Of a stretch of DNA of 36,226 nt, positions 7,571 to 30,071 are shown piece after piece. How positions within the stretch are numbered: position 1 is the stretch's first letter; every line of letters begins with the position of its first letter. A program made the translations under genes and the position numbers. The notes beneath the pieces were generated by a model. That model was not told where the DNA came from. It searched no databases and saw only the letters and a program-made list of their open reading frames with translations. Source of the DNA: Nocardiopsis endophytica (GTDB taxonomy: Bacteria; Actinomycetota; Actinomycetes; Streptosporangiales; Streptosporangiaceae); NCBI RefSeq assembly GCF_027706725.1, contig NZ_JAQFWQ010000075.1, positions 1-36,226 of the forward strand. Direction: 5' to 3'.

Positions 7571-7632
7571 GTTGATCTCGGGAGAAGCGACGCTACCGGG
7601 CCGGTTGTAGCGTCCTTTTTCCCGAGATCAAC
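7571..7632. repeat. 62-bp palindromic element, copy 1 (likely bidirectional terminator)
   Basis: Outer arms GTTGATCTCGGG/CCCGAGATCAAC enclose an inner stem (GACGCTAC/GTAGCGTC) and a 10-nt loop. A T-rich stretch lies on the 3' side of the plus strand. It sits between convergent genes; the minus gene's stop codon begins at 7628, inside the last bases of the element. Inner pairing uses G.T wobbles that suit a plus-strand RNA better than a minus-strand RNA. Confidence 0.85.
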
Positions 7633-8281
7633 GAGATGGGAGGCCGCGCTCCAGCAGGGCGCGTCCGGTGCGGTAGGCCTCCGGGAGGCTGGTGCCCCGG
7701 TACGCGGCGGCGGCCAGGTGGGCGATGTGCGCGTCGCCGTTGACCGCGACCGTGTGCGCCAGGTGCCCGAACAGCGGCGCGTCGGACTTGGAGTCGCCGT
7801 AGGCGACGCAGTCCTCCGGGCGCACGCCCAGCGACGTGCGCACCTCCTCGGCGATGCGGACCTTGTCCTCGGGCGTCAGGATGCGCTCGGCGTCCGGCGG
7901 CGCGGGGAACGGCGGGGCCGGGAACGGTGTGGCGGCGATCCGGTCGAAGCCGAACACCGCCAGCCGCTCGGCGAAGAACGACGGCGACATGGTGATCACC
8001 AGGGAGTGCTCGCCGCGCCCGCGGATGTCGGCGCACACCTCGGCGATGCCCTCCAGGAAGGGCCCCGAGGCGAACGCCGTGTCGACGTGCGCCGGGGTCA
8101 GGTCCGCCCACACCCCGTACAGGGCGGTGGAGAAGCCGCGGGTGTCCAGCTCGCCAGAGGCGAAGCGGCGCTCCAGGTCGGCGATGGCCTCCTCGGTGCC
8201 GCTGGCGCGGGCGATCTCCAGGTTCGCGGTGCTCCCGGCGAGGAGGGTTCCGTCCATGTCGAAGATGTGCAGCCTCGTCAT
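7628..8281 (-). CDS. HAD-superfamily phosphatase (SerB-like)
   Basis: A 217-residue cytoplasmic hydrolase. Motif I is FDMDGTL with nucleophile D8 and acid/base D10. Motif II lies in VITMS, motif III lysine in EDKVRIAEE, and motif IV is GDSKSD. The helical cap inserted after motif I, and the overall length, fit the phosphoserine-phosphatase-like (HAD-IB) group; the substrate cannot be told from sequence. The start is the ATG at 8281, directly before MTRLHIFDMDG; only a weak AGGG precedes it. It converges on the TPR gene across palindrome copy 1 and diverges from the nrdAB regulatory region. Confidence 0.85.
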   Translation of the reverse strand: MTRLHIFDMDGTLLAGSTANLEIARASGTEEAIADLERRFASGELDTRGFSTALYGVWADLTPAHVDTAFASGPFLEGIAEVCADIRGRGEHSLVITMSPSFFAERLAVFGFDRIAATPFPAPPFPAPPDAERILTPEDKVRIAEEVRTSLGVRPEDCVAYGDSKSDAPLFGHLAHTVAVNGDAHIAHLAAAAYRGTSLPEAYRTGRALLERGLPSR

Positions 8282-8341
8282 CGATCGGAACCCTAACCGG
8301 TCGCACCGCCCGCGCGATCCACCCCCACCCCTCCTGTGACA

Positions 8342-8357
8342 CACGGCTATCTTGAGG
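8342..8357 (+). promoter_or_regulatory. candidate NrdR box 1 (weak half-site)
   Basis: Aligned to the NrdR box consensus (acaCwATATaTwGtgt), the right half TATCTTG fits and the left half is poor. Its centre is 32 bp from the better box at 8374, the three-turn spacing usual for tandem NrdR boxes. NrdR is the ATP/dATP-sensing repressor of RNR genes. Confidence 0.45.
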
Positions 8358-8373
8358 TGGTCGCAGCGGGGTG

Positions 8374-8389
8374 CCACTAGATGTAGAGT
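8374..8389 (+). promoter_or_regulatory. candidate NrdR box 2
   Basis: CCACTAGATGTAGAGT matches the 16-bp NrdR box at 12 positions, including the symmetric core C-W-A..A-T..T-W-G. TAGAGT at 8384-8389 could be the -10 box, so bound NrdR would block RNA polymerase. It lies just upstream of the cobalamin riboswitch of nrdAB. Confidence 0.6.
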
Positions 8390-8394
8390 CGCTC

Positions 8395-8685
8395 CCGCCG
8401 ACGGTTCGCCCCGGTCGCGCATTCGTGCGGACGGGGGCGAGGCAAGAGGGAACCCGGTGCGAATCCGGGACTGCCCCGCAGCGGTGAGTGGGGGACGGCG
8501 CGGCCTGACGGCCCGAACGGCCGGTGAACCGGGGGGATCCGGCACCGGGTCCGCGCCTTCCGGTGTCCGCATGGTCGCACTGGGCGCGTGAGCGCCCGGG
8601 AAGCGGCGGACGCCGTGCCGCCCGGCCTTGGGCCGGAAGCACACCCGCGAGTCCGAAGACCTGCCGCCGGTGTGCGCCTGCGCGC
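8395..8685 (+). promoter_or_regulatory. cobalamin (AdoCbl) riboswitch upstream of nrdAB
   Basis: The conserved core is visible: AGAGGGAACCCGGTGCGAAT followed by CCGGGACTGCCCCGCAGCGG near 8446-8485, and the B12-box region GAGTCCGAAGACCTGCC near 8650-8667. The long leader has peripheral stems between them. A hairpin downstream (GGGTCCG at 8726-8732, CGGACCC at 8746-8752) is a candidate expression platform. Control of an aerobic RNR operon by AdoCbl is established in Streptomyces coelicolor (nrdABS). Here it should shut off nrdAB when B12 allows use of a class II enzyme. Confidence 0.93.
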
Positions 8686-8817
8686 GCACGTTTGACGGGG
8701 CCTCGAGGGCGGGCCGCCGCGAGCCGGGTCCGCCGTGTCCGAGGACGGACCCCCGTCTCGTGCTTCCCGGCCTCGACTTCCCGACCGGTTGATGGACTAC
8801 CTGGTGGGAGCGAGCGA

Positions 8818-11334
8818 ATGACCCTCGACACGGAGCCGGCGGCACGGATCGCGGAGGCGGTACGGGAGGCGGCGGCCGGCCTGCCCGGTGTGCGGCCGGA
8901 CGCGGTGGAGGCCGAGGCCCGCCGCGGGCTCTACCCCGGCATCCGCGCCGACGAGGTGGACCTGGCCCTGGTCATGGCGGCGCGCAGCCTCGTCGAGGAG
9001 GACCCCGACTACTCGCCGATGGCCGCCCGGCTGCTGCTGGGCTCGCTTCGCCGCGAGGCGCTGACCTTCCTGGCCTCCTCCGCCGCCTCTGCCGACAGCG
9101 CCGGCGCCACCGACACCGCCGGGCAGGCGGAGATGGCCGCGCGCTACCCCGCCTATCTCGCCGACTACGTGGCCCGCGGCGTGGAGCTGGGCCAGCTCGA
9201 TCCGGAGCTGGAGAAGTTCGACCTGGACCGCCTGGGCGCGGCCCTGCGCCCCGAGCGGGACCTGGACTTCACCTTCCTGGGCCTGCAGACCCTCTACGAC
9301 CGGTACTTCCTGCACAGCGACGGGGTGCGCTACGAGCTGCCGCAGGCGTTCTTCATGCGCGTGGCCATGGGCCTGGCCCTGGAGGAGGACGACCGCGACG
9401 CGCGGGCGGCCGAGTTCTACGACCTGCTGTCCTCGTTCGACTTCATGTGCTCCACCCCCACCCTGTTCAACGCGGGCACGCGCCACGCGCAGCTGTCGTC
9501 GTGCTTCCTGACCACGGTCGACGACGACCTCGAGGGCATCTTCAAGGGGATCTCGGACAACGCCCTGCTGTCGAAGTACTCCGGCGGCCTGGGCAACGAC
9601 TGGACCCCGGTGCGCGGCATCGGCGCCCACATCCGCGGCACCAACGGCAAGAGCCAGGGGGTCGTGCCGTTCCTCAAGATCGCCAACGACACGGCGGTGG
9701 CGGTCAATCAGGGCGGCAAGCGCAAGGGTGCCGTCTGTGCCTATCTGGAGACCTGGCACATCGATGTCGAGGAGTTCCTCGATCTGCGCAAGAACACCGG
9801 GGACGAGCGGCGGCGCACGCATGACATGAACACCGCCAACTGGGTGCCCGACCTGTTCATGCGCCGGGTCGAGCAGGACGCCGAGTGGACCCTGTTCTCC
9901 CCCGATGAGACGCCCGACCTGCACGACCTCTACGGGCGGGAGTTCACCGAGCGGTACGAGGCCTACGAGCGCGCCGCCGACGAGGGGCGGATCCGGGTGT
10001 GGCGGCGGGTCCGCGCCGTCGACCTGTGGCGGCGCATGCTCACCATGCTCTTCGAGACCGGGCACCCGTGGATCACCTTCAAGGACCCGTGCAACCTGCG
10101 CTCGCCGCAGCGGCACGCCGGGGTGGTGCACTCCTCCAACCTGTGCACGGAGATCACCCTCAACACCAAGGCGGGCGAGGAGGTCGCGGTCTGCAACCTC
10201 GGGTCGGTCAACCTCGCGCGGCACGTGCGCGACGGCGGGCTGGACTCCGAGAAGCTGGAGCGCACCGTGCGCACGGCCGTGCGGATGCTCGACAACGTCA
10301 TCGACGTGAACTTCTACACGATCCCCGAGGCGCGGACGGCGAACATGCGCCACCGCCCGGTCGGGCTCGGGCTGATGGGCCACCAGGACGCGCTGTTCCA
10401 GCTGCGCATCCCCATGGGCTCCCAGGAGGCCGTGGAGTTCGCCGACTCCAGCATGGAGCTGATCTCCTACCACGCCATCGCCGCCTCCAGCGATCTGGCG
10501 GCCGAACGCGGCGCCTACGCCTCCTTCGACGGGTCGCTGTGGAGCCGGGGCGTTCTGCCCATCGACTCCCTTGAGTACCTGGCCCAAGCGCGCGGGGGCG
10601 ACGGTGACGGGAGCGGCCTGGACGTCGATCGCACCGCCCGCCTGGACTGGGACGGGCTGCGCGAGCGGGTGCGTGCGCAGGGCATGCGCAACTCCAACGT
10701 CATGGCGATCGCGCCGACCGCCACCATCGCCAACATCACCGGCGTCGGCCAGTCCATCGAGCCGATCTACCGGAACCTGTTCGTGAAGTCGAACATGTCC
10801 GGCGACTTCACCGTGGTCAACCCCTACCTGGTGCGCGACCTCAAGGAGCGCGGCCTGTGGGATGACGACATGGTCGCGCGGCTCAAGCTGCACGACGGCA
10901 GCCTCGGGCCCATCGAGCGCGTGCCCGAGGACCTCAAGGAGCTGTACGCCACCGCGTTCGAGGTCGACCCGGAGTGGCTGGTGGACGCCGCGTCCCGGCG
11001 CCAGAAGTGGATCGACCAGGCGCAGTCGCTCAACCTCTACATGGCGGCCCCCAGCGGCCGGAAGCTGGACGCGCTGTACCGGCGCGCGTGGAAGACGGGC
11101 CTGAAGACCACGTACTACCTGCGCTCGCAGAGCGCCACGCACGTGGAGAAGTCGACGCTCAAGGGCACCGACGGGCGCCTGAACGCCGTCGCGGCGACCC
11201 CGGCGCCGTCGCCGGCCCCCGCGCCGTCCCCGGTCGCGGCGGTGTCCCCGCAGGCGGGGAGCGCTCCGGAGATCGACCCCGACGCGGGCTCGGTGTGCTC
11301 CATCGACGACCCCGAGTGCGAGGCCTGCCAGTAG
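8818..11334 (+). CDS. nrdA: ribonucleoside-diphosphate reductase, alpha subunit (class I)
   Basis: An 838-residue catalytic subunit that reduces NDPs to dNDPs using a radical supplied by NrdB. Active-site residues are in place: C229 (QLSSCFL) and C459 (AVCNLGS) as the redox pair, N441/C443/E445 in NLCTEI as radical site, Y766-Y767 for radical transfer, and C-terminal C834/C837 (CEAC) as thioredoxin-facing shuttle. [10 protein letters not shown] marks the phosphate-binding loop. The N-terminal ATP-cone is short: the helical part (to ~85) is present but the leading VxKRDG-type strands are missing. A low-complexity Ala/Pro linker precedes the tail. The start at 8818 follows GGGAG; the frame stays open upstream only through riboswitch DNA. 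nrdB follows after 134 bp. Expression is likely governed by NrdR boxes and the B12 riboswitch. Confidence 0.96.
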
Positions 11335-11468
11335 CACCGCCCCCTGGAGGGGCGGGCGGCCCGTGCCCCCGGCCGCCCGCCCCGCCCCCGCGCTCTCCAC
11401 CGCCAGCGCTCCGCACCGCACTCTGCACCGCCACAGACACCGATTCAGAAGGACGACGGAACCCACCC

Positions 11469-12542
11469 ATGACGACTGCCCCGGAGACCCACGGCACCGG
11501 ACTCGGCGCGATCGACCGCGGCGGCGCCCGCGTGAGCGTCGGCGACAAGGCGATGATCAACGCGCGCGCCGACGTGAACCAGCTGCTTCCGCTGAAGTAC
11601 CGGTGGGCCTGGGACAAGTACCTCGCCGGGTGCAACAACCACTGGATGCCCACCGAGGTGTCCATGCAGGCCGACATCGCCCTGTGGAAGTCGGCCGACG
11701 GGCTCACCGACGACGAGCGGCTGATGGTCAAGCGCAACCTGGGCTTCTTCGCCACGGCGGAGTCGCTGGTCGCCAACAACATCGTGCTGGCGGTCTACCG
11801 GCAGCTCACCAACCCCGAGTGCCGCCAGTACCTGCTGCGCCAGGCGTTCGAGGAGGCCGTGCACACGCACACCTTCCAGTACATCTGCGAGAGCCTGGGC
11901 CTGGACGAGGGCGAGCTGTTCAACATGTACAGGGAGGTCCCCTCCATCACGGAGAAGGACGCCTGGGCGCTGAAGTACACGCAGAACCTGGAGGACCCGG
12001 ACTTCACGACCGGCACCCCCGAGGCCGACCAGGCGTTCCTGCGCGACCTGGTGGCCTTCTACGTCATCTTCGAGGGGATGTGGTTCTACACGGGCTTCGC
12101 CCAGATCCTCTCCCTGGGGCGCCGCAACAAGATGGTGGGCGTGGCCGAGCAGTACCAGTACATCCTGCGGGACGAGTCGATCCACCTGAACTTCGGCATC
12201 GACGTGATCAACCAGATCAAGCTGGAGAACCCGCACCTGTGGAGCGAGGGGTTCCAGCGCGAGGTGCGCACGATGCTCGCCGAGGCGTGCGAGCTGGAGG
12301 TGGCCTACGGCAGGGAGACCATGCCGCGCGGCATCCTCGGGCTCAACGCCGACCTGTGCGAGCGGTACATGCACTTCATCACCGACCGCCGGGCCGAACA
12401 GATCGGGCTGGAGCCGGTCTTCGGCGGCACGGAGAACCCGTTCCCGTGGATGGCGGAGATGATGGACCTCGACAAGGAGAAGAACTTCTTCGAGACCCGG
12501 GTCATCGAGTACCAGACGGGCGGCGGCCTGAGCTGGGACTGA
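11469..12542 (+). CDS. nrdB: ribonucleotide reductase beta subunit, class Ic-like (Phe at radical site)
   Basis: A 357-residue ferritin-like radical-generating subunit. Metal ligands read E98, E129, H132, E202, E236 and H239. In Escherichia coli R2 the first ligand is Asp and the residue four after the first His is radical Tyr122; here these are Glu98 and Phe136 (EEAVHTHTF). Both substitutions are those of the class Ic R2 of Chlamydia trachomatis, which uses a Mn/Fe cofactor instead of a tyrosyl radical. The C-terminal tail has a Tyr (VIEYQTGG) suited to radical transfer to NrdA. Start ATG 11469; AGAAGGA lies about 15 nt upstream, an unusually long spacing. Family is certain, the Mn/Fe cofactor inferred. 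A terminator follows. Confidence 0.95.
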
Positions 12543-12554
12543 CCTGCGCGGACA

Positions 12555-12597
12555 CGGCTCCCCGGGCCCGTCGGCGGAGGGTGCGGGGAGCCGTTTC
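12555..12597 (+). terminator. intrinsic terminator after nrdB
   Basis: CGGCTCCCCG (12555-12564) pairs perfectly with CGGGGAGCCG (12584-12593), followed by TTT. It lies 13 bp past the nrdB stop and should end the nrdAB transcript. Confidence 0.75.
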
Positions 12598-12764
12598 GGG
12601 GGAGGCCCGGGAGACGTCCGGCGCTCCGTGGTGTGACCGACATCACTGATCGGGGTAGTGGGCCTGGCATGGAGGGGCTCTCGGCGCCGAGGGCGCCCGC
12701 ACGGCGACGCGCCGGGCGTGCTCCGGCTGGCGCCGATTCGTTACCTCAGGTAGACCGTTCGTTT

Positions 12765-13658
12765 ATGGACCACCGAGGAATCGTTTACGAACGGCACGGC
12801 CGGGGCGAGCCCCTCGTGCTGCTGCACGGGCTGGGGCACCGGCGCCAGGCCTGGGAGCCGGTCGTGGACGAGCTGGCGCGGCGGTACGAGGTGTTCGCCC
12901 TGGACCTGCCCGGGTTCGGCGAATCGCCGGGACCCGCCCCTGACGGCCCATACGGTATCCCCGCCCTGGTCGACGCGGTCGCCGCGTGGTGCGCCGCCGC
13001 CGGGCTGCCCCGGCCCCACCTGGCGGGGAACTCCCTCGGCGGCGCCGTCGCGCTGGAGCTCGGCGCGCGCGGGCTGGCCTCCTCGGTCACCGCCCTGTCG
13101 CCGATCGGGTTCAGCCGCGGGACCGAGATGCTGGGCAGCCGCCTGATGCTCGGCGGCATGCACGTCGCCACCCGGGTGCCCGCCAAGGCATGGCGCCGGG
13201 TGATCGACAGTCGCCCGGTCCGCACGATGACCACGCTCGCCGTGCACGGGCGCCTGCGCGACCCGTACGGCGAGCTCGCCCGGCTGGACCCGTCGGTGGT
13301 GACGCGCGGATCCCCCTACACGCGCCTGGCGCCCGAGGTGGTGCGCTACAGCTTCACCGGTGGGCCGGTCGTGACCTGCCCGACCACCGTGGCCTGGGGC
13401 GAGAACGACCGCGTCCTTCCGGTCCGCGCGGTACGGCGGGTGCTGCGGGCGATCCCGCACGCGCGCGAGGTGCGGCTCCTGGGGTGCGGCCATGTGCCGA
13501 TGGACAACGACCCCAGGACGGTTGCCCACACCATCCTGAGCACCTGCGCCCCCGAGTCGGCGTCGAGCGGCCGGGGTGCCGTGAGGCCCAAGCGCGCGCG
13601 ACTGCGCCCGCGCGTGACCGCCGTTCCGGCGAACGCCCCCGCAAACGCCCCCGCCTGA
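12765..13658 (+). CDS. alpha/beta hydrolase
   Basis: A 297-residue alpha/beta-hydrolase fold protein with a recognisable triad: nucleophile S90 in GNSLGG, D215 in WGENDRVLP and H243 in GCGHVPMD. LLHGLGHRRQAW carries the oxyanion-hole HG motif. The substrate is unknown; esterase, epoxide hydrolase or haloperoxidase-like roles fit equally. An upstream in-frame ATG at 12633 would add 44 low-complexity residues, so I prefer ATG 12765, directly before the conserved start of the fold, though no strong Shine-Dalgarno precedes it. The C-terminal ~40 residues are basic and Ala-rich. It stands alone after the nrdB terminator. Confidence 0.85.
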   Translation: MDHRGIVYERHGRGEPLVLLHGLGHRRQAWEPVVDELARRYEVFALDLPGFGESPGPAPDGPYGIPALVDAVAAWCAAAGLPRPHLAGNSLGGAVALELGARGLASSVTALSPIGFSRGTEMLGSRLMLGGMHVATRVPAKAWRRVIDSRPVRTMTTLAVHGRLRDPYGELARLDPSVVTRGSPYTRLAPEVVRYSFTGGPVVTCPTTVAWGENDRVLPVRAVRRVLRAIPHAREVRLLGCGHVPMDNDPRTVAHTILSTCAPESASSGRGAVRPKRARLRPRVTAVPANAPANAPA

Positions 13659-13702
13659 CCGGGTGCGGACGATCCGCGGGGATTGCGGCGGACCGTCGGC
13701 GA

Positions 13703-13732
13703 TTGCGATGATCTGCGGCGTTGTGCGATAGG
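13703..13732 (+). promoter_or_regulatory. candidate promoter of the MHYT gene
   Basis: TTGCGA (13703-13708) and GATAGG (13727-13732) are separated by 18 bp, giving a leader of about 37 nt before the MHYT start. Confidence 0.35.
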
Positions 13733-13775
13733 GGGAAACGGTCCGCGGCCGCGGATCTGAGGGGAAAAATCAGAC

Positions 13776-14540
13776 ATGGTCGAGCATTTCGCTCAAGGGG
13801 TGTGGACCCCGCTGGTCGCGTGCGCCGTTTCGGTCCTGGGGTCGTTCCTGGGTCTCAGATACGCCTCGCGGGCGCTGTCCTCCTCGGGCCGGACCCGGAC
13901 GGCCTGGACCGTGCTCGGCGGGATCTCCCTGGGCGGCGCGGCCGTGTGGTCCATGCACTTCATCGCGATGCTCGGCTTCCGCGTCCCCGGCACCCCGATC
14001 CGCTACGACCCGCTGATGACCGCGGCCAGCGCCGCCGTGCCGGTGGTCGTCATGACCGGGGCGCTCGCGGTGGTGATCGCCCGCCTGTGGCGCCGGCTGG
14101 TGCTGCTGCCCGTCGGCGGCGCGCTGGTGGCCCTGGCCATGCTCACCATGCACTACATGGGCATGGGGTCGATGCGGATGGACGCCGACATGGTGCACGA
14201 CCCCCTGTTCGTGGTCGCGGCCGCGATGGTGGCGCTGGCCGCCTCGGTCGGGGCGCTCTGGTTCGTCGGCAAGCGGTGGACCCTGTCGGCGACCCTGGTG
14301 GGCGCCGCGCTCCTGGGCGGCGCCGTGACGGCGATGCACTACATCGCGATGGCCGGGGTGGGCGTCGAATCCGTGGGGCAGGGGGCCGACATGTCCGGCG
14401 GCGTGCCCGCGCTCGGCTTCCTCACCCCCATGATCATCGGCCCGGGCGCCTTCCTCGTGCTCGGCACCCTGCTCCTGCTGGTGCTGCCCGACGAACGGCC
14501 CGTCACCGGCGGTGCCGCCGCCGAGGCCCCCGCCCACTGA
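13776..14540 (+). CDS. MHYT-domain integral membrane sensor
   Basis: A 254-residue membrane protein with about seven hydrophobic helices. The MHYT signature (Met-His-Tyr/Phe, then Met) occurs three times: MHFIAM, MHYMGM and MHYIAM, at the ends of successive helices. MHYT domains are thought to bind copper and sense O2, CO or NO, usually attached to signalling outputs. This one stands alone with no kinase, GGDEF or EAL domain, so its partner must be another protein or it signals in the membrane. GAGGGG near 13759 fixes the ATG. It converges on btuC across palindrome copy 2. Confidence 0.88.
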   Translation: MVEHFAQGVWTPLVACAVSVLGSFLGLRYASRALSSSGRTRTAWTVLGGISLGGAAVWSMHFIAMLGFRVPGTPIRYDPLMTAASAAVPVVVMTGALAVVIARLWRRLVLLPVGGALVALAMLTMHYMGMGSMRMDADMVHDPLFVVAAAMVALAASVGALWFVGKRWTLSATLVGAALLGGAVTAMHYIAMAGVGVESVGQGADMSGGVPALGFLTPMIIGPGAFLVLGTLLLLVLPDERPVTGGAAAEAPAH

Positions 14541-14552
14541 CGCCCCCACCCC

Positions 14553-14614
14553 GTTGATCTCGGGAGAAGCGACGCTACCCGCGCGGTTTTGGCGTCGTTT
14601 TTCCCGAGATCAAC
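14553..14614. repeat. 62-bp palindromic element, copy 2
   Basis: It has the same outer 12-bp arms and total length as copy 1. The inner sequence differs yet still pairs: GCGACGC on the left against GGCGTCG on the right, with T5 before the right arm. It lies between the convergent MHYT (+) and btuC (-) genes, 8 bp before the btuC stop, so it probably ends both transcripts. Confidence 0.85.
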
Positions 14615-14622
14615 GACGGGGG

Positions 14623-15705
14623 TCAGCCCATGGTCCTGCCGGCGCGTGCGTCGCGGCGCATCAGCCACAGGAAGAACGGCGCGCCGCACAGGGCGGTGAG
14701 GATGCCGATGGGGATCTCCTGCGGCGCGGCGAGCGTCCGCGCGGCCAGGTCGGCGAGCACCATGAAGGACGCGCCGAGCAGGACCGCGACCGGGAGCATG
14801 CGCCGGTGGTCGGTGCCCACGAGCAGCCGGGCGATGTGCGGCATCATCAGCCCGACGAACCCGATCGGCCCCGAGAGCGCGACGAGCACACCGGTGCACA
14901 GGGACACGGCGACGAACATCAGCGCGCGGAACCGGTGCACCCGCAGTCCCATGCCGACCGCCGTCTCCTCGCCCAGCTGCACGACGTTGAGCGCGGGCGT
15001 CGCCGCCGCCGTCACCGCCAGGGCGGTGAGCACCGCGGCGCCCGCCAGGGGCAGGTCCTCCCAGGTGGTCCCGCCGAGCCCGCCCAGGGTCCAGCGCTGC
15101 ACGGCGCGGGCGGCGTGCGGGTCGCCCGACATGGTGATCATGAGGCTCGCGGCGGCCGAGCACACCTGGCCGACCACCACACCGGCCAGGATCAGCCGGG
15201 TGACCGTCATCCGCCCCGCCGTGCGGGACAGCAGGTACACGGCGACGAGCGTCCCTAGAGCGCCGAGGAACGCCGCAGCAGGGGTGGAGTAGGCGCCGAA
15301 GACGGTCACGCCCCCGACGACGACGGACACCGCGCCCAGCGTCGCCCCCGAGGACACGCCCAGCAGCAGCGGGTCCGCGAGCGGGTTGCGCACCAGCGTC
15401 TGCAGCACCGCCCCGACGGCCGCCAGTCCCGCGCCGTTCAGCACCGCCAGCAGCACGCGGGGCGCGCGGGCCGACACCACGATCGCCTCGTGCGAGGGCG
15501 GCCAGTCCGGTTCGACCAGGCCGGGGAGGAGGCGGTGCGCGGCGATGCGCCAGGTGTCGGCGGCGGACACCTCCACCGACCCGGCGACCACGCCGAGGGT
15601 GGCGGCCGCCGGGAGGGCGGCCGCCAGCGCGCACAGCACCACGGGCAGGGGCGGCGCGGCGGGGCGGCGCCGTGTGGGCCGGGTGCTTGTGGGCCGGGCG
15701 CTCAC
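14623..15705 (-). CDS. btuC: FecCD-family ABC transporter permease, probably vitamin B12 importer
   Basis: A 360-residue polytopic protein with 9-10 membrane helices. RNPLADPLLLGVSSGA and GPIGFVGLMMPHIARLLVGTDHR are hallmark segments of BtuC/FecCD type II importers, the latter containing the coupling region for the ATPase. Start GTG 15705 lies 2 bp after the btuF stop, so translation is coupled. The operon is headed by a cobalamin riboswitch, so the substrate is likely B12 or a cobinamide rather than a siderophore. No ATPase gene follows: the next gene is convergent. Confidence 0.88.
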   Translation of the reverse strand: MSARPTSTRPTRRRPAAPPLPVVLCALAAALPAAATLGVVAGSVEVSAADTWRIAAHRLLPGLVEPDWPPSHEAIVVSARAPRVLLAVLNGAGLAAVGAVLQTLVRNPLADPLLLGVSSGATLGAVSVVVGGVTVFGAYSTPAAAFLGALGTLVAVYLLSRTAGRMTVTRLILAGVVVGQVCSAAASLMITMSGDPHAARAVQRWTLGGLGGTTWEDLPLAGAAVLTALAVTAAATPALNVVQLGEETAVGMGLRVHRFRALMFVAVSLCTGVLVALSGPIGFVGLMMPHIARLLVGTDHRRMLPVAVLLGASFMVLADLAARTLAAPQEIPIGILTALCGAPFFLWLMRRDARAGRTMG

Positions 15706-15707
15706 CG

Positions 15708-16739: not shown

Positions 16740-16844
16740 GTCCGGTCCTCTCGCGGGATCCGGGCGCGTCCGGGGGAGGGCAGGGCAGAGCCGTGCACGT
16801 GCGGCGTCCTCTCCGGGGTCCGCGCCCCTGGTCGGCGTCGTTCC

Positions 16845-17003
16845 GCGACGGGACAGTCTCCTGACTCCCGGATCGGCGCCTCGCCCGGCCTTCCAGCGCT
16901 CACGCGCCGTGGCCCTTCGAGGGGTCGGCTCCCCGGTCACAGTGGCGGGACCGTGCCGGACTCGCACCGGCTTCCTGGCTCCCGTCGCGCCACCAGCCTA
17001 CGG
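16845..17003 (-). promoter_or_regulatory. cobalamin riboswitch upstream of btuFC
   Basis: On the minus strand the core reads GGGAGCCAGGAAGCCGGTGC, then GAGTCCGGCACGGTCCCGCC and ACTGTGACCGGGGAGC, and after a variable stem GGGAGTCAGGAGACTG, the B12-box end. It is compact compared with the nrdA riboswitch. It should repress btuF-btuC when adenosylcobalamin is abundant. Confidence 0.92.
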
Positions 17004-20430: not shown

Positions 20431-20445
20431 CCCGGCCCTGGGCCC

Positions 20446-21608: not shown

Positions 21609-21643
21609 GATGTCCACCCCCCTCGTGGAAGCCTGGTGAGAGT

Positions 21644-22549: not shown

Positions 22550-22611
22550 CCGGGCGCCGCCCCACGGCCGGCCGCCCGGACCCGGCCGTCCCACTACCGA
22601 GGAGAACCACC

Positions 22612-23295: not shown

Positions 23296-23377
23296 TCGGG
23301 GGAGACGCGCTGATCAGGTGAGACGGGGGACTCGGTAGGGTTCCGGCAGGGGAGCACGAGGGGCACGGAGGGGCGAC

Positions 23378-24199
23378 GTGGACGGCGTGGACGCCGCCGG
23401 GAGCGGTACAGGGCTGGCGGGGGCCGTCTCCCGCGGCGCGCCCGAGCCGCTGAACGTGCAGATCGCCCGGGCGGTGCGCGAGCGCATCGCCACAGGGGCC
23501 TGGCCGCCGCACTTCAAGCTCCCCGCCGAGCCCGACCTCGCCCGCGAGCTGGGCGTCAACCGGGGGACGGTGCGCAAGGCGCTGGCGTCGCTCACCGAGG
23601 AGGGCCTGCTGGTGCAGACCAGGGGCCGGGGGACGTTCGTGACGTCCGGCAAGGCCGAGCCCGCGATCGCCCAGCGCCTGAGGTCGCTGTCCGAGGACTT
23701 CCGGGACCAGGGCATCGAGGTCCGTTCCGAGGTCGTGGACGCGCGCCTGGTGCGCCTGCCGCTCACCGTGCAGGCGCTCCTGGGGGCCGGGGCCAACACC
23801 CCCGGCCTGCGCCTGGTCCGCGTCTTCCACGGCGAGGAGGGGCCGCTGGCCTACCTCGTCAACTATGTGCGCGCCGACCTGTGCCCGGGGATCGACCGGG
23901 TCGACTTCGAGCGGGAGTCGCTGTTCGGCACCCTGGAGCAGCGCTACCGGCTGGACATCACCGAGGGGCGCCGCTCCTTCAGCGCCGAGCCCGCGCGCGA
24001 GGAGGCCGCCGAGGCGCTCCGCCTGGAGCCGGGGGCGCCCGTGCTCTACCTGGAGCAGGTGACCTACACCCGGGGAGGGCAGGCGGTGGAGTACTCCGAC
24101 GTGTGGATCGACAGCTCCCGCGTGAAGGTGACCTCGCTCCTGGACCGGGGCCCCGTCGGCACGCCCCGGCCGGGCCCCGGAGGTCCCGCCCGGAGGTAG
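23378..24199 (+). CDS. GntR-family regulator with UTRA domain (HutC type)
   Basis: A 273-residue transcription factor. Residues ~27-90 hold the winged helix: IARAVRERIATGAWPP, then LARELGVNRGTVRKALASL as recognition helix, and GRGTFVTSG as wing. Residues ~105-255 form a UTRA effector domain ending in the typical VEYSDVWIDSSRVKV. HutC-type members usually bind a sugar phosphate or related metabolite and repress their own operon. Being last in the ribokinase-deoC run, it probably controls that operon and perhaps the divergent nucleoside hydrolase. GGAGGGG precedes GTG 23378; GTG 23387 is an alternative. Confidence 0.9.
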   Translation: MDGVDAAGSGTGLAGAVSRGAPEPLNVQIARAVRERIATGAWPPHFKLPAEPDLARELGVNRGTVRKALASLTEEGLLVQTRGRGTFVTSGKAEPAIAQRLRSLSEDFRDQGIEVRSEVVDARLVRLPLTVQALLGAGANTPGLRLVRVFHGEEGPLAYLVNYVRADLCPGIDRVDFERESLFGTLEQRYRLDITEGRRSFSAEPAREEAAEALRLEPGAPVLYLEQVTYTRGGQAVEYSDVWIDSSRVKVTSLLDRGPVGTPRPGPGGPARR

Positions 24200-24400
24200 C
24201 CGGAGGTCCGGCCGGGAGGTGGCCGGAAGGCCCGCCGGGACAGGTGCCTCCGTCCGCTATCGGCCCTGCTGTGGTCCCGCGGCGAAGAGTCCGATATCGT
24301 CCGGCTGCACAGGGCCCCGCACCGCCAGCGCACCGCGGCGCGGAGCCGATCCGAACCGGCCGCCCGCACGGCCCCGGCGCACCCCCTCAACGGTGGCCCG

Positions 24401-24865
24401 ATGAACGAGACCGGAGACGCCACGTCCATGGTCGGCGACGCCCCGGCGCTTGACGCGCGCCGGACCTTCCCCGGCGACCCCGAGCAGTGCCGTGAGGCGC
24501 GGCTGTGGGTGCGCGCCGTGATGCGCCCCTTCCCCGACGCCGCCGACGCCGTCGAAGTGGTCGTCAGCGAGTTCTTCGGCAACGCCGTCCGGCACACCGC
24601 CTCCGGCGAGCCCGGCGGCGAGGTGGCCGTGGAGCTGTCCGGGGGCGACGGGAACCCGATCCGGCTCAGCGTGGTCGACCAGGGGGGCCGGTCGGACCGC
24701 CCGGCGACCGCCGCCCGCGTGCTCGCTCCGACCCTCAGCCGCCCCGACGGCCGCGGCCTGTTCCTGGCCGCCGCCCTGAGCAGCGAATGGGGCCGCTCCC
24801 CCCTCGACGGAACGGGGTCGATGGTCACCTGGGCCGAGTTCCCCGCCGACCGTCCGGACCTCTAG
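24401..24865 (+). CDS. HATPase_c (RsbW/SpoIIAB-like) ATP-binding regulator
   Basis: A 154-residue GHKL ATPase domain alone. The N box is EFFGNAVRHT (N61), the G1 box VVDQGG and the second Gly loop GRGLFLAAAL. Such single-domain proteins in actinomycetes act as anti-sigma factor kinases on anti-anti-sigma (STAS) proteins or in signalling complexes. No sigma factor or STAS gene is adjacent, so the partner is unknown. The ATG at 24401 lacks a strong ribosome binding site; ATG 24428 is possible. The gene ends before the palindromic element pair at 24902-25080. Confidence 0.8.
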   Translation: MNETGDATSMVGDAPALDARRTFPGDPEQCREARLWVRAVMRPFPDAADAVEVVVSEFFGNAVRHTASGEPGGEVAVELSGGDGNPIRLSVVDQGGRSDRPATAARVLAPTLSRPDGRGLFLAAALSSEWGRSPLDGTGSMVTWAEFPADRPDL

Positions 24866-24901
24866 GTCCCGTCCGGAGTCTCCCCGTTCGCCCCCACCGT
24901 C

Positions 24902-24917
24902 GTTGATCTCGGGAGAA
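24902..24917 (+). repeat. left half of a 62-bp palindrome (truncated copy)
   Basis: GTTGATCTCGGGAGAA is identical to the left arm of copies 1 and 2, but no matching right arm lies within 62 bp. The following bases contain a direct repeat GAGAACCCGC. It lies 102 bp before full copy 3, in the same convergent gap, and looks like a decayed or half-deleted element. Confidence 0.7.
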
Positions 24918-25018
24918 CCCGCCCCTACGAGCGCGCTTTGAGAACCCGCGCGGATGGGCGGGCGGGCGGCAGGGCGCCCGGCCTCGCCGACTCCGCTGCC
25001 GAGCGCCGCTCCTGCGTC

Positions 25019-25080
25019 GTTGATCTCGGGGAATGCGCCCCAAAACGCGGCCCGGAAGCGTCGTTCCTCCCGAGATCAAC
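25019..25080. repeat. 62-bp palindromic element, copy 3
   Basis: Outer arms GTTGATCTCGGG/CCCGAGATCAAC are perfect. The inner part (GGAATGCG against CGTCGTTCC) pairs imperfectly with a bulge. Length is again exactly 62 bp. It lies between the convergent HATPase (+) and TetR (-) genes. Confidence 0.8.
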
Positions 25081-25130
25081 GACGAGCACACCTGCCGATC
25101 GGCCGGACGGGATCCGGCAGTGCCCCGGGG

Positions 25131-25790
25131 TCAGCGCGGGCCGTGCAGGGCGAGGAACGCGGCGACGCCGGACGCGATCAGCGCGTCGGTCTCCTCCTGC
25201 GGAAGCGGCAGTGCCCCGTGGAAGGAGCGCTCGTAGACCTCTGAGGCGACGAGCTGGGTGAAGTGGGCGGCCAGCTCCTCCGGCGGGCCGCCGCTCAGCC
25301 CGCCCTCCTCGGCCAGGGCCCCCATCCGTTCGGCCAGCCGGGAGTGGACGCGCCCGGGCCCGGTCTCCCGCCACCCCTGCAGCACGTGCTCGGGCAGGTG
25401 CCGCGCCTCGGCGAAGATCACGCGCACGAGGGCGAAGTGGCCGGCGAAGTCCTCGTGCGGGACGGCCAGCCCGTGCCCGAGCCGGGTGAGGGCGGCGGCG
25501 AGGTCCGGGGGCGGGGTGCCCAGGTGGCGGTCGATCAGTCCCTCGTGGTACTCGGCCACCGCCCGCGCGCTCTGCTGCAGCACGGTCAGGAAGAGCTGCG
25601 CCTTGTCCCGGTGGTGGTTGTAGATCGTGCGCTTGGAGACCCCCGCCTCGGCGGCGATCGCGTCGACGCTGGCGCGGCTGTAGCCCTCGTTCCCGAAGAC
25701 GGTGCGGGCGGCGGCGTCGATGGCGGCGCGCTTGGCGGGGTGGCCGCCGGGGGCGCGCCCGGCGGCGCGGGGCGTGTCGGACGGGTCCAT
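25131..25790 (-). CDS. TetR-family transcriptional regulator
   Basis: A 219-residue repressor. The N-terminal helix-turn-helix spans ~25-66, with YSRASVDAIAAEAGVSKRTIYNHHRDKAQLF typical of the family (split: YSRASVDAIAAEAG, then VSKRTIYNHH). The C-terminal ~150 residues form the variable helical ligand and dimer domain. ATG 25790 is preferred for the GGAG nine bases upstream; ATG 25805 is possible. The divergent YczE-like gene is the likely target because a directly repeated sequence overlaps its promoter. Confidence 0.9.
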   Translation of the reverse strand: MDPSDTPRAAGRAPGGHPAKRAAIDAAARTVFGNEGYSRASVDAIAAEAGVSKRTIYNHHRDKAQLFLTVLQQSARAVAEYHEGLIDRHLGTPPPDLAAALTRLGHGLAVPHEDFAGHFALVRVIFAEARHLPEHVLQGWRETGPGRVHSRLAERMGALAEEGGLSGGPPEELAAHFTQLVASEVYERSFHGALPLPQEETDALIASGVAAFLALHGPR

Positions 25791-25807
25791 GGGTGGTCGC
25801 TCCATTG

Positions 25808-25852
25808 ATTGCACTGGACGGTTTACCTATTGCACTGCACGGTGTAGTTTAC
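25808..25852. promoter_or_regulatory. direct-repeat operator and promoter between TetR and YczE-like genes
   Basis: ATTGCACTGGACGGTTTAC (25808-25826) recurs as ATTGCACTGCACGGT plus GTAGTTTAC (25829-25852), 21 bp apart, two helical turns. TTTACC (25822-25827) and TAGTTT (25845-25850), spaced 17 bp, could be the plus-strand promoter, so a regulator bound here would cover it. Confidence 0.55.
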
Positions 25853-25924
25853 GTCGCGGCGGGCCGACCCGGAACCCCCGGAGCCGCGCCCGTTCCGCAT
25901 CCGCCCCGTTCACGGGAGGCCGCC

Positions 25925-26608
25925 GTGCCCTCTTCCGCCCCACCCGTCTCCGACGCCCCCGCGCCCCCGGTCCGCATCGCGCGGCTCGTTCCCTATCTCG
26001 CGGGCTGCGCCGTCTTCGCCGCGGGCGCGGCCTCCTTCATCCGCGCCGGGCTGGGTGTCGACCCCCTGGACGTGCTCTCCCTGGGCATCCTCGAACACGT
26101 CCCCGGGACCATCGGCCTGGCGCAGGCGTCCATCGCCGCCGTCTGCATCGCCGTCTGGGCCCTGTGGAACCGCCGCCGCCCGGTGCTGATGCCCTTCGTG
26201 ACCTTCCTGCTCTGCGGCTCGCTGATCGACCTGTTCCTGCTGGCCGGCCCGGTCGGGGCGCCCCCGGCCCTGGCGCTCGCGGCCGCCGTGCCGCTGTGCG
26301 CCTACGGTTCGGCGCTGATCATCATGAGCGGCATCGGCATCCGCGCCATGGACCTGCTGGTCATCAGCGCGAACGCGCACTGGAACACGCCCTTCTGGGC
26401 CGCGAAGGCCGGAATCGAGGCCGTGCTGCTGACCGTCGGCTGGCTGCTGGGCGGCCCCGTCGGCGTCGGCACGCTCGTCTTCCTCGTCGGCGTCGACGGG
26501 CTCATCCAGCCCGCGATGGCCTTCAACACCCGCATCCTGCGGATGACCAACCACGGGCTGCCCGGCCGCGCCGCCGCGTGCACGCCCGCCGCCGCGGGGG
26601 CCCACTGA
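25925..26608 (+). CDS. YczE/YitT-like integral membrane protein
   Basis: A 227-residue protein with about five transmembrane helices. The first helix region FAAGAASFIRAGLGVDPLDVLSLGI is the conserved YczE/YyaS block (split: FAAGAASFIRAGLG, VDPLDVLSLGI), and a later RAMDLLVISA repeats the pattern, as in this internally duplicated family. Function is not established; some members influence antibiotic production or export. GGGAGG fixes GTG 25925; the upstream ATG at 25793 lies inside the operator. It is likely repressed by the divergent TetR protein, and the DsbA-like gene follows 79 bp later. Confidence 0.8.
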   Translation: MPSSAPPVSDAPAPPVRIARLVPYLAGCAVFAAGAASFIRAGLGVDPLDVLSLGILEHVPGTIGLAQASIAAVCIAVWALWNRRRPVLMPFVTFLLCGSLIDLFLLAGPVGAPPALALAAAVPLCAYGSALIIMSGIGIRAMDLLVISANAHWNTPFWAAKAGIEAVLLTVGWLLGGPVGVGTLVFLVGVDGLIQPAMAFNTRILRMTNHGLPGRAAACTPAAAGAH

Positions 26609-26687
26609 CCCCTGGACCCTGCCCGCCCCGACCCGCCCCCCGACCCGCCCGCGAACCGTTCGCGGACCGTCCCTCCCGGAGGTACCG

Positions 26688-27287
26688 ATGAAGATCACCA
26701 TGGTCGTCGACATCATCTGCTCGCACTCCTACCTCGCCTTCCACCACCTGCGCCAGGCGCTGGACGCCCACCGCGCCGACGGCGGCGACGCCGAAGTCTC
26801 CTTCCTGCCCTACCGGCTCGACCCCGGCGCTCCACCGGAGCCGGAGCCGGTCACGGCCGTGCTGGAGCGCAGGTTCGGCCCGGCCGCCCTGGACGCTGCG
26901 GCGGGGATGGCGGAGAAGGCCGCGGCCGAGGGCCTCGTCCTCGACTACGGCCGGGCACTGAACGCCAACACCCGCTCGGCCCACCTCCACCTGGTGCACG
27001 CCGAGCGCCACGGCCGCGCCGAGGAGATGGCAGAACACCTGTTCCGAGCCCATTTCACCGAGGGGCTCGACATCGGCGACCCCGCAACCCTCGCGGACCT
27101 GTCCGCTGAGACGGGCGTGCCGGGTGCGCCCGGCGCGGAGGACCGGGAGGAGCTGGCCCGACGCGAGGAGCGCACCCGTGCGCTCGGCGTCCGCGGCGTG
27201 CCCGTCGTCCTGACCGAGGCGGCGGGGCCGCTGGTCGGCGACCGGTCGCGGGCCGACTTCGCGCGGCTCCTCGCCGGCGGGCGGTAG
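26688..27287 (+). CDS. DsbA/FrnE-family thioredoxin-fold protein with altered active site
   Basis: A 199-residue cytoplasmic thioredoxin-fold protein with the helical insertion of the FrnE/HCCA-isomerase group. The usual CPWC motif reads C11-S-H-S14 followed by YL, so the resolving cysteine is replaced by serine. cis-Pro lies in GVRGVPVVLTE. With a single active-site Cys it cannot form the normal disulfide; isomerase, glutathione-linked or binding functions are options, since 2-hydroxychromene-2-carboxylate isomerases use Ser-containing SPFSYL-like motifs. GGAGG precedes the ATG. It is probably in one transcript with the YczE-like gene. Confidence 0.8.
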   Translation: MKITMVVDIICSHSYLAFHHLRQALDAHRADGGDAEVSFLPYRLDPGAPPEPEPVTAVLERRFGPAALDAAAGMAEKAAAEGLVLDYGRALNANTRSAHLHLVHAERHGRAEEMAEHLFRAHFTEGLDIGDPATLADLSAETGVPGAPGAEDREELARREERTRALGVRGVPVVLTEAAGPLVGDRSRADFARLLAGGR

Positions 27288-27401
27288 CGGGGGAAGCGGG
27301 GGTAGCGGCGGCGACGAGGTCCTGCGCGCCGCGCTGCGGGGCCGGGCCGGGGATGGGATCCTCTGTCCGACCGGCTCGGCCCTGCGGGAAGGGGACAGTC
27401 C

Positions 27402-27881
27402 ATGGAGGAGACCGGAAGGCCGAAGCGGCCGTCGGGGGTGGCGCGGGCGCTGTACCGCGTGCCCATCCACCTGTACCGGTGGAACCTCGGGTGGCTCATG
27501 GGCCGGCGCTTCCTCATGCTGAACCACATCGGGCGCCGGTCGGGGCTCATGCGCCGGGTGGTGGTGGAGGTCGTGGACCGCGACGCCGCCCAGGGGACCT
27601 ACACCGTCTGCTCCGGGTTCGGCCCCGGATCGGACTGGTACCGTAACCTGCTCGCCGAGCCCAAGGCCGTGATCCAGATCGGCAATAAGCGCATGAAGGT
27701 CACCGCGCACCCGCTGGACGCCGAGTCCGGGGCCGACACCATGGCCCGCTATGCGCGCCGCCACCCGCGCTCCGCCAGAGCGCTGGCGGGGTTCATGGGG
27801 TTCCGCGTCGACGGGAGCGAGGCCGACTTCCGCGAGGCGGGGCGCCGCCTCCCGTTCATCAGGTTCGAACCCCGCCAGTAG
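27402..27881 (+). CDS. deazaflavin (F420)-dependent oxidoreductase, Ddn-like
   Basis: A 159-residue split-barrel protein of the nitroreductase/deazaflavin-dependent family. LNHIGRRSGLMRRVVVEVV is the hallmark strand-turn-strand (GRRSG), and GSDWYRNLLAEPKAVIQIGN is the second conserved block. These enzymes use reduced F420 to reduce quinones, nitro compounds or enones at the membrane. GGAAGGGGA lies upstream of the ATG. Its stop overlaps by one base a possible GTG of the APH-like gene, suggesting coupling. The substrate is unknown. Confidence 0.88.
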   Translation: MEETGRPKRPSGVARALYRVPIHLYRWNLGWLMGRRFLMLNHIGRRSGLMRRVVVEVVDRDAAQGTYTVCSGFGPGSDWYRNLLAEPKAVIQIGNKRMKVTAHPLDAESGADTMARYARRHPRSARALAGFMGFRVDGSEADFREAGRRLPFIRFEPRQ

Positions 27882-27892
27882 TGTCGCGGGAC

Positions 27893-28795
27893 ATGAACCG
27901 GGACACGAACGAGGTCTTCGACAGCGGCACCGCCCGCTCCGTGATGGAACAGGCCTGCGCCGACGCGGGCCTGCCCTCTCAAGGGGCGAGGCTGGTCTCC
28001 CTCGGTGAGAACGCGGTGTTCGCCCTGGACGGGCCCGGTGTGGTGGTGCGCGTCGGACGGGACGCCGCTCTTCTGGAGCGGGCCTGGCGCGAGGTGCGCG
28101 TGGCCTCCTGGCTGGCCGACGAGGGCGTCCCCGCCGTCCGCCCGGCGGACGGCGCCCCGGAGCCCACCCTGGTCGACGGGCGCCCGGTCACGTTCTGGCG
28201 CCGCCTTCCCGACCCGGTGCGCCCGGCGGGCGGCGCGGACCTGGCCGGGCTGCTGCGCCGCGTCCACGCCCTGGGGCGCCCGCCCTTTCCCCTGCCCCCG
28301 CGCGACCTGCTTTCGGGGGTCGAGCGCTGGCTCGCCGCCGCCGAAGGGCACATCGACCCGGCCGACGCCGACTACCTGGCGCGGCGGCGCGACGCGTTCG
28401 CGGAGAAGGCCGGCGCCCTGGCGCCGCTGCTGCCCACCGGCCCCGTGCACGGCGACGCGCTGCTGCGCAACGTGCACATCGGCCCCGACGGGCCGGTCCT
28501 GGTCGACCTGGAGACCTTCGCCGACGACATGCGCGAGCACGACCTCGTCGTCATGTGGCTGATGCGGGACCGCTACGGCATGCCGGAGGAGGAGTACCGC
28601 GCCTTCACCCGCACCTACGGATGGGACGTCGCCGAGTGGGAGGGCGCGGCGGTGCTCCGGGGCGCCCGGGAGACCGCGAGCGCGGCGTGGGTCGCTCAGC
28701 ACACACCGGGTAACCCCCAGGCGCTGGCGGAGTTCGAGCGCCGTGTCGCCTCGCTCAGGGACGGCGACCCCTCGGTGCGCTGGCGCCCCTTCTGA
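27893..28795 (+). CDS. aminoglycoside-phosphotransferase-family kinase
   Basis: A 300-residue protein-kinase-like phosphotransferase. VVVRVGRD is the nucleotide-binding strand, VHGDALLRN the catalytic loop with its Asp, and VLVDLETF the metal-binding Asp equivalent of DFG. The family covers antibiotic, choline, homoserine and other small-molecule kinases, so a resistance role cannot be assumed. ATG 27893 is taken as start; GTG 27881, overlapping the upstream stop, would add four residues. Neither has a strong ribosome binding site. A 545-bp gap follows. Confidence 0.83.
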   Translation: MNRDTNEVFDSGTARSVMEQACADAGLPSQGARLVSLGENAVFALDGPGVVVRVGRDAALLERAWREVRVASWLADEGVPAVRPADGAPEPTLVDGRPVTFWRRLPDPVRPAGGADLAGLLRRVHALGRPPFPLPPRDLLSGVERWLAAAEGHIDPADADYLARRRDAFAEKAGALAPLLPTGPVHGDALLRNVHIGPDGPVLVDLETFADDMREHDLVVMWLMRDRYGMPEEEYRAFTRTYGWDVAEWEGAAVLRGARETASAAWVAQHTPGNPQALAEFERRVASLRDGDPSVRWRPF

Positions 28796-29340
28796 CGCGT
28801 TTCCGGGCCGGCGGCAACGGCCCCGGTCTTCCTCACCCTCCGTCGCGTCCGGATCGCCCCGCAGGTGCGCTGCGCTGCGCCCTTGGGCCGCCCGCCGGTT
28901 CCAGAAGTCCGGGAATTGGCCGGATCCGGTACGTGTGCCGGAAGAATGTTGACATTTGAACATGGGAAGGTCGATGCTGTGCGGCGACGGCTCCGCTCAC
29001 GTGGGGTGACCGGGAGGCGGTGCCGTCGACGGGTGCGGCCTCCGGGGGAGAGGGGGCTCAGGGGCGCGCCCGCGGCGGGGGCCGTCCCGCGCGACCGAAC
29101 CTTGTCCCGACCCGTTCCGGGCTGTGTCCCGGGTGTTCGCCACCTGGCACGGCGATCCGTCCACACCCGGTGGACCGTCCGGAGCGGCGCGGTCCGGGCC
29201 CCGGGCGCACACGCTGTGCGTCCGGGCCCCGGACCCGCGTGGGAACGACCGTCCGGGCGCTTCTTGCTACCGTGCGGTGTGCCGCCCCCGGCCGCCGGAC
29301 ACCCTCCGCGCGGCCGCCGTCCCGATCCGGAGAGTCCCCC
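28796..29340. other. intergenic gap with local AT-rich patch
   Basis: No supported gene in 545 bp. A less GC-rich stretch near 28946-28976 contains TTGACA, a perfect -35 box, without a convincing -10 at the right distance. TACCGT at 29268-29273, preceded by TTGC, could be an extended -10 for the lipoprotein gene at 29341. The rest is GC-rich sequence with no repeat or structure I can define. Confidence 0.4.
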
Positions 29341-29994
29341 ATGCGCGTCCCGCCGCTTCCCCGCCCCGCCCGCGCCGCCGCGGCCGCCGGAGGCCTCGCC
29401 GCCGTCGGCGTCCTGCTGGCGGGGTGCAGCGGGTCCGACGTCGGCGAAGGCGTCGGCGACCTGGAACTGCCCGACCTGGGCGCCATGGTGCCCTCGGCCT
29501 CGCCGTCCGAGGAGGCCGAGGCCGCGGCGGCGCTCCCGGCGAGCTGCGCCGAGGCGGGCGCCGCCGAGGTCGTCGGGGACAGCGTCCCCCAGGGGGCCCA
29601 GCTGGAGGAGGAGAGCGGCGCCATCGAGGGCGCCGACGGCGCCGAGCGGCTCGGCTGCGTCTGGTCGGGCCGGGACGCCTCGGTCGCCGTGGTGTACGCG
29701 CTCAACGCCGACACCGCCGACCTGACCCAGGTGCTTCAGGACTCCGCGGGCGGTCCGGAGGCCAACTGGGAGGTCGACGTGGACGTCTACGGCGACACCT
29801 ACCACTCCGAGGACGCCGACGCCGTCGGCGGCGAGCTGGAGTACCTGGCGACCGCGGGCGACACCACCCGCTACGTGCTGCTCACACTGCCCGGTGACGT
29901 CCGGGTGGCCGCCGCCGCGAACGGCGGCGGCCTGGAGCAGGAGGACCTGGAGCGGATCGCCCTGGAGGCCGGGCAGCGGATCGTCACCGACTAG
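29341..29994 (+). CDS. secreted lipoprotein of unknown function
   Basis: A 217-residue predicted lipoprotein. The signal has Arg residues, a hydrophobic Ala/Leu/Val core and lipobox LLAGC with C29. A Glu/Asp/Ala-rich acidic segment follows, then a compact domain with two cysteines (PASCAEA and RLGCVWSG) likely to form a disulfide. The domain layout recalls DUF3558-type actinobacterial lipoproteins but I cannot confirm it. GGAGAG precedes the ATG. It converges on the OmpA-domain lipoprotein across palindrome copy 4; both are surface lipoproteins. Confidence 0.75.
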   Translation: MRVPPLPRPARAAAAAGGLAAVGVLLAGCSGSDVGEGVGDLELPDLGAMVPSASPSEEAEAAAALPASCAEAGAAEVVGDSVPQGAQLEEESGAIEGADGAERLGCVWSGRDASVAVVYALNADTADLTQVLQDSAGGPEANWEVDVDVYGDTYHSEDADAVGGELEYLATAGDTTRYVLLTLPGDVRVAAAANGGGLEQEDLERIALEAGQRIVTD

Positions 29995-30009
29995 CCCGGC
30001 CCCCGCCTC

Positions 30010-30071
30010 GTTGATCTCGGGGAAGTCGGGCTCATGGTGTCCGTTCTTACCCCGACTTCCCCGAGATCAAC
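30010..30071. repeat. 62-bp palindromic element, copy 4 (perfect 21-bp stem)
   Basis: The arms extend to 21 bp without mismatch: GTTGATCTCGGG plus GAAGTCGGG on the left, mirrored exactly on the right, around a 20-nt loop. Outer 12 bp are identical to copies 1-3 and total length is again 62 bp. It is placed 16 bp after the lipoprotein stop and 24 bp before the stop of the converging OmpA gene. Confidence 0.9.

Follow-up and report, generated by a model that had tools for sequence, protein, structure and literature searches.

A 36,226-nucleotide stretch of the Nocardiopsis endophytica genome (contig NZ_JAQFWQ010000075.1, positions 1 to 36,226; here, the window) carries four 62-bp palindromes, which our analysis places in a family of miniature mobile hairpins resembling REPINs, that is, doublets of repetitive extragenic palindromic (REP) sequences forming hairpins. 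We assign a probability of about 0.6 to this reading, in which the elements measure 60 to 62 bp, an outer GTTGATC...GATCAAC is kept across several actinomycete families, and the stem between is self-complementary and lineage specific. The elements occur in many copies of constant length with constant ends, are present or absent at orthologous sites, prefer gene 3′ ends, and covary along their stems. In addition, one center has been inverted exactly in place, and a single junction can hold different stem classes in different related species.

All four palindromes (Table 1) lie exactly where an earlier note on the window had placed them, and they share the identical 12-bp arms that it reported, GTTGATCTCGGG and CCCGAGATCAAC. 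Each forms a single stem of about 29 bp. For both strands, the computed RNA folds reach −29 to −45 kcal/mol, with z-scores of −3.6 to −10.3 and none of 200 shuffles as stable in any case. By our own gene calls, the window contains five convergent junctions, four of which hold an element, while the fifth (20430/20446) has a gap of 15 bp, again as described. A scan of the window against Rfam at the gathering threshold gave no match at the elements, the sole match being a cobalamin riboswitch elsewhere.

A search of the whole genome (G000, Nocardiopsis group) recovered 188 exact-arm matches with gaps of 24 to 52 allowed, compared to 0 for a reversed-pattern control, and 270 copies of 62 bp with no more than three mismatches over the 24 arm positions. 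The latter count was 7, 99, 2, 9, and 74 in five relatives of the same genus, G001 to G005, respectively. The earlier note had proposed a dispersed, REP- or MITE-like element (MITE, miniature inverted-repeat transposable element) and a genome-wide search for the 12-bp arms at 62-bp outer spacing. That search returned many copies, and the proposal is borne out by the roughly 190 to 270 copies, by presence and absence between relatives, by composites, and by the preference for 3′ ends. Within a survey of 2.01 Mb (28% of the genome, comprising parts of the 20 largest contigs and the window), 67 of 67 arm pairs with at most two mismatches per arm were exactly 62 bp, where total lengths of 30 to 120 bp were allowed. 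Counts of the 7-bp ends also changed little between spacers of 46 to 48 and of 40 to 56 bases in G000 (199/199), G025 (146/146), G002 (50/53), G206 (52/53), G046 (8/9), and G011 (14/17), G004 being the exception (9/15).

Two main stem classes, A and B, were recognized in G000; assignment by regular expression gave 46 elements of class A, 19 of class B, and 2 of neither, with at least one (C19:28113) misfiled. Composites were also found, namely six class A/class B pairs 91 to 92 bp apart, each scored as two elements, and units of half element, linker, and element, including one in the window at 24902-25080. Linkers like that of the window composite adjoin other G000 elements of both classes. 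A third stem class was observed at C6:40765-40826, with matching changes in both arms (GTTGATCTCGAC...GTCGAGATCAAC), and a similar one is present on contig C125 of G001. Separately, the flanks of eight G000 copies (C2:21888, C6:1720, C6:18056, C11:18201, C13:11, C17:41, C18:11844, and C19:116) match non-orthologous G001 stretches, mostly at 72 to 85% over about 60 to 420 bases, and these copies therefore lie within a longer dispersed repeat; several of them are at contig ends.

Orthologous sites in the relatives differ in occupancy. G001 aligns with window positions 6500 to 15700 at 91 to 96% identity (94% for the two longest matches) and has no element at 7571, 14553, C19:28113, C19:29706, or 30010, which are 5/5 of the sites with both flanks matched (92 to 98% identity) in the G001 stretches compared. 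At the 30010 junction, it has 267 bp of other sequence instead. G002, taken as N. suaedae LSu2-4, is empty at 7571 and 14553 and has its own element at the 25019 junction; at the 30010 junction, its element is of class A, versus class B in G000. N. halophila has an element at two junctions where G000 has none. At N. halophila locus L017, an element stands where G000 has, by eye, only a different G+C-rich hairpin; at L029 and L033, alignment was too poor to call presence or absence.

Occupied sites differ in content as well. The element at C6:79787 is identical to its N. suaedae counterpart at 62/62 positions when flipped and at 56/62 unflipped, and the surrounding spacers are alike in both species apart from a 4-base gap and one substitution. 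Given the symmetry of the stem at this site, a turn of the center alone would suffice. Among five orthologous pairs compared between G000 and the named species, two match better in flank orientation; of the other three, the first is an exact inverse, the second fits slightly better when inverted (32 versus 30 of 38), and the third is unrelated. At C4:29651, the element is of class A in G000 and N. halophila and of class B in G001, where its arms are doubly changed (GTCGATC/GATCGAC). The 1.3 kb between the G000 elements at 28397 and 29651 is missing in G001 (L253; G001:C113 versus G000 C4:28397-29712). A gene lies between these two G000 elements and is absent in G001, where one element stands. 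The G001 locus looks as if two elements had recombined, and an element-mediated deletion is possible.

Placement was determined using a simple gene caller of our own rather than published annotation (1716 genes in the 2.01 Mb, with rough 5′ ends). The 67 elements comprised 30 at convergent, 30 at co-directional, and 2 at divergent junctions and 5 at contig edges, and none lay inside a predicted gene. The elements of the earlier note are real, whereas its claim that they are placed only between convergent genes, with none in co-directional or divergent gaps, fails; that impression is a small-sample effect. What persists is a bias. Compared to random intergenic placement, convergent gaps were favored (30/62 observed; 12.5 ± 3.2 expected), divergent gaps were avoided (2/62; 18.1 ± 3.5), and positions no more than 35 bp from a gene 3′ end were overrepresented (37/62; 8.1 ± 2.6), with 0 of 5000 draws as extreme for each of these counts. 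In seven cases a gene ends exactly 5 bases inside an element, and all seven use the TGA of the arm as stop codon; at the 7571 element, the TGA of the leftward gene (7628-7630) belongs to the minus-strand arm. Outside G000 the convergent bias is weaker or unproven: convergent copies made up 13/22 in N. suaedae and 8/21 in N. halophila, and 16 loci of eight other genomes were divided among convergent (6), co-directional (7), and divergent (2) junctions and the inside of a predicted gene (1).

Elements at 3′ ends with strong folds on both strands invite the explanation that they are bidirectional terminators or 3′-end RNA barriers, in which, on both strands, the hairpin halts RNA polymerase or exonucleases and selection keeps it at gene ends. 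Their predicted fold and position would still allow termination, convergent gaps are enriched, and 30/67 elements contain four or more consecutive T in the 3′ half of the stem on one or both strands; in class A, this T run comes after an inner hairpin (by eye). However, a constant length and 7-bp ends shared across genera are unnecessary for termination, only 28 of 299 convergent junctions carry an element, and orthologous junctions in relatives do without one, while at the L017 locus the alternative hairpin of G000 takes the place of the N. halophila element. Nor are the ten bases past the hairpin U-rich (matching upstream A, 0 to 13% per position), and flank composition gave no sign of the U-tract that directly follows the hairpin of an intrinsic terminator. 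We therefore regard selection as terminators as an unlikely explanation of the family.

The family is not confined to Nocardiopsis. GTTGATC and GATCAAC were searched for 40 to 56 bases apart in 250 genomes of the bacterial family and 46 to 48 bases apart in 394 genomes of the class, and identical 7-bp ends were found on 60- to 62-bp hairpins with unrelated stems in other genera. In the class search, 66 genomes gave matches and 21, across five families, had five or more copies; these are mostly pattern matches, pairing having been scored for few outside G000, and counts of 1 to 4 per genome in either search resemble chance matches, many in coding-like sequence. One of the five families (f22, genome G310) is doubtful, as its two loci pair at only 16/30 and 20/31 positions. 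The reversed-pattern control was 0 except in one genome (2). Two patterns gave 0 matches in viral contigs, and two single elements used as queries gave no match in plasmids.

Covariation was assessed in a gap-free alignment of 14 hand-picked 62-bp elements from G000, G001, G004, N. suaedae, N. halophila, G046, and G349. Of the aligned cells, 90.9% were paired, compared to 33 to 49% in slid-partner controls. Both sides had changed in 22 of 29 pairs (91 cells), and one-side changes were rare (8 cells). The outer 7 bp were constant bar one double change, although this constancy is partly built in, all but one of the 14 having been found by searches specifying these ends or arms. Ends nearly constant across genera on a stem that varies agree with the earlier note's remark that the arms are more specific than termination needs. 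Wobble pairs were rare, which fits a DNA hairpin and would equally fit an RNA read from both strands, because a G-U pair on one strand corresponds to A-C on the other. Of 29 class A elements that combine a GACGC arm with a GCCCC arm, 11 had the loop in one orientation and 9 in the other, with 1 same-type and 8 unclassified, a pattern consistent with an oriented consensus whose centers may flip.

Near-invariant ends (found, as noted, mostly by searching for them), constant spacing, and convergent enrichment might also be expected of protein-binding or chromosome-architecture sites, at which a conserved actinomycete protein binds two GTTGATC ends at fixed spacing and, for example, absorbs supercoiling between convergent genes. 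This would leave unexplained why the stem is self-complementary and lineage specific, why 30 copies are co-directional, and why copy number is low in the same-genus G001 and G003, and we consider it improbable.

Several results weigh against the elements being REPIN-like and mobile, the first of which concern a mobilizer. The RAYT-like transposase that the earlier note had suggested looking for is rare among carriers: of 24 high-copy genomes, 19 gave no match to PF01797 (Y1/RAYT transposase), 4 of the 19 being under 90% complete, and among the five with a match, that of G002 is only weak, over 30 positions. A first survey had given the pattern expected of a partner, with PF01797 in 9 of 12 genomes, among them each of the five with high copy numbers (G000, G002, G005, G025, and G079), and no match in G003 and G004 of the same genus. 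A second survey, in which high copy meant five or more copies, found it in 0/19 high-copy and 4/20 low-copy genomes. No element occurred at any of 16 Y1 loci examined, over about 1.5 kb on each side or less at contig ends. The G000 Y1 protein reads, by eye, like TnpA of IS200/IS605. On the second survey, Y1/RAYT was rejected as a general mobilizer; for Nocardiopsis alone, the case is weakened.

Nor do the 66 elements compared show a target-site duplication: left end and right start have no bases in common in 63 of them and 2 or 3, never more, in the other 3, with no excess over permutations. The same result bears on a classical MITE, derived from a DDE transposon and bounded by 12-bp terminal inverted repeats, for which the many copies with constant terminal inverted repeats would speak; lacking such duplications, and with the entire unit a near-palindrome, this origin appears very improbable. 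Insertion into pre-existing hairpins was also rejected, as flank complementarity over 10 bases was 4.57 versus 4.40 (0.20 of permutations as high) among 30 elements whose flanks are unique, out of 108 with flanks, the exception being position −1 (0.83 versus 0.66; 0.012). The four flanking bases, over 132 flanks of 66 G000 elements and on both sides, were most often CCTC (23), CGTC (20), or CCGC (19), with TGTC at 4; other genera vary in these bases.

The comparison of relatives and of stems also holds points against mobility. In three closely readable cases (7571, 14553, and C19:29706), the spacer beside the element is altered too, so that more than a clean insertion of 62 bp separates the two genomes and no clean boundaries emerged. 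Because some sites are common to several species, part of the set is old and inherited; G001 likewise has retained an element at C4:29651. The low count in G001 could be due to loss there and not to gain in G000. Finally, complementarity between the inner halves of G000 elements is lower than when halves are paired at random (class A, 10.2 versus 12.1 ± 0.34; class B, 12.4 versus 13.8 ± 0.52), and a perfect hairpin is therefore not under simple selection in G000. A random mosaic of half-elements was rejected on this measurement together with the loop orientations in class A.

Among known systems, REPINs (PLoS Genet 2011, PMC3116915) are the nearest. According to the portion of that source available to us, they share conserved ends, a hairpin-forming variable spacer of set length, compensatory changes, an extragenic location, and many copies. 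They differ in being tied to RAYT transposases, in consisting of two 16-mers with REPs versus the 7- to 12-bp ends of one long stem, and in host, the carriers here being actinomycetes. The elements work like REPINs, yet REPIN status is not established, because in most carriers a search for the defining transposase gave no match. As described in part by Di Nocera et al. (2013, PMC3733652), CGTC- and GTAG-tagged REPs also lie between convergent and co-directional genes; convergent copies are mostly less than 20 bp from 3′ ends, and the ends of GTAG REPs often supply the stop codon. In the same account, CGTC REPs lack a dedicated transposase, and the commonest flanks here resemble their CGTC/TGTC/CCTC tag; they differ in having stems of 8 to 9 bp, loops of 4 to 5 nucleotides, and an unpaired tag at one end, versus a stem of about 29 bp and a flank motif on both sides. 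The GTAG tag that sets GTAG REPs apart is absent here: neither GTAG nor GGAG formed the adjacent four bases, read towards the element, on either side of 66 G000 elements. The main text of PMC3733652 mentions neither Actinobacteria, Nocardiopsis, or Streptomyces nor GATC.

Bacterial interspersed mosaic elements, REP mosaics that the available portion of PMC3116915 names, likewise form composite arrays, from another building unit. Template switching in inverted repeats, described in yeast (PMC8604942, in the part available), can yield covariation of this kind without selection, in that arm homogenization plus spacer inversion would give covariation and a flipped center. It differs in being a mutational process and not an element, and leaves the spread and the constant ends unexplained. 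The accessible part of a survey of bacterial inverted repeats (PMC10434271) does not mention this hairpin family, and no title among the literature matches listed was recognized as describing it, which is not proof that it is unpublished. Integron attC sites, whose terminal boxes are of opposite sense to those of these elements, were set aside.

Taking the elements as REPIN-like mobile hairpins, we propose that a trans-acting factor would recognize a DNA hairpin or cruciform by its ends and size and place copies into spacers. A factor reading folded DNA is suggested because ends and length are constant while the interior is free but self-complementary, and spread by copying because of copy number and presence/absence. 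Insertions would survive mainly just behind genes and be purged from promoters, as under ordinary selection on insertions, and template switching within the palindrome may re-match the arms and flip the center. Some copies probably serve secondarily, perhaps by exaptation, as transcript 3′-end structures. More tentatively, and with odds that we put somewhat short of even, the elements may form a class of mobile DNA, present in several actinomycete families, whose mobilizer is other than Y1/RAYT and recognizes the 7-bp ends and the size alone; the stem could then be any self-complementary sequence, with centers flipping and stems being swapped at fixed sites, as expected if the element passes through a DNA hairpin intermediate. 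There is a real chance that this is a separate class of mobile hairpin.

Coordinates are collected in Table 1, together with two neighboring features. The 2.9-kb stretch listed there adjoins the composite element and encodes a TetR-family regulator, a DsbA-like protein, and, in the final part of the stretch, an F420H2-dependent quinone reductase-like protein. The cobalamin riboswitch lies upstream of two leftward genes, the second of which encodes a FecCD-type transporter.

Table 1. Elements and neighboring features of the window
Feature	Position	Strand	Context
62-bp element, class A	7571..7632		Convergent junction; junction empty in G001, G002, G003, and G005, not resolved in G004
62-bp element, class A	14553..14614		Convergent junction; junction empty in G001, G002, and G005, no comparison from G003 and G004
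Partial element (left arm + about 28 more bases)	24902..24941 (end approximate)		Absent from the earlier note
Linker of composite repeat (half element - linker - full element)	24942..25018		
62-bp element, class A	25019..25080		Convergent junction; borders stretch without counterpart in G001 and G002
62-bp element, class B	30010..30071		Convergent junction; class A element at same junction in N. suaedae
Stretch of ~2.9 kb	24853..27805		Missing in G001; about 24889-27389 of it missing in G002 too
Cobalamin riboswitch (Rfam RF00174)	16834..17000	minus	81.9 bits

If the elements are indeed REPIN-like mobile hairpins, actinomycetes carry REP-like dispersed hairpins on a large scale, in most cases lacking the transposase that is credited with mobilizing them elsewhere. 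The spread of REPs that lack a transposase, such as the CGTC kind, would then be directly testable, with G000 (270 copies) and G001 (7) as a natural comparison. Covariation in such hairpins would call for caution, as it need not imply RNA function. Gene 3′ ends in these genomes would be rewritten by short palindromes, which sometimes supply the stop codon.

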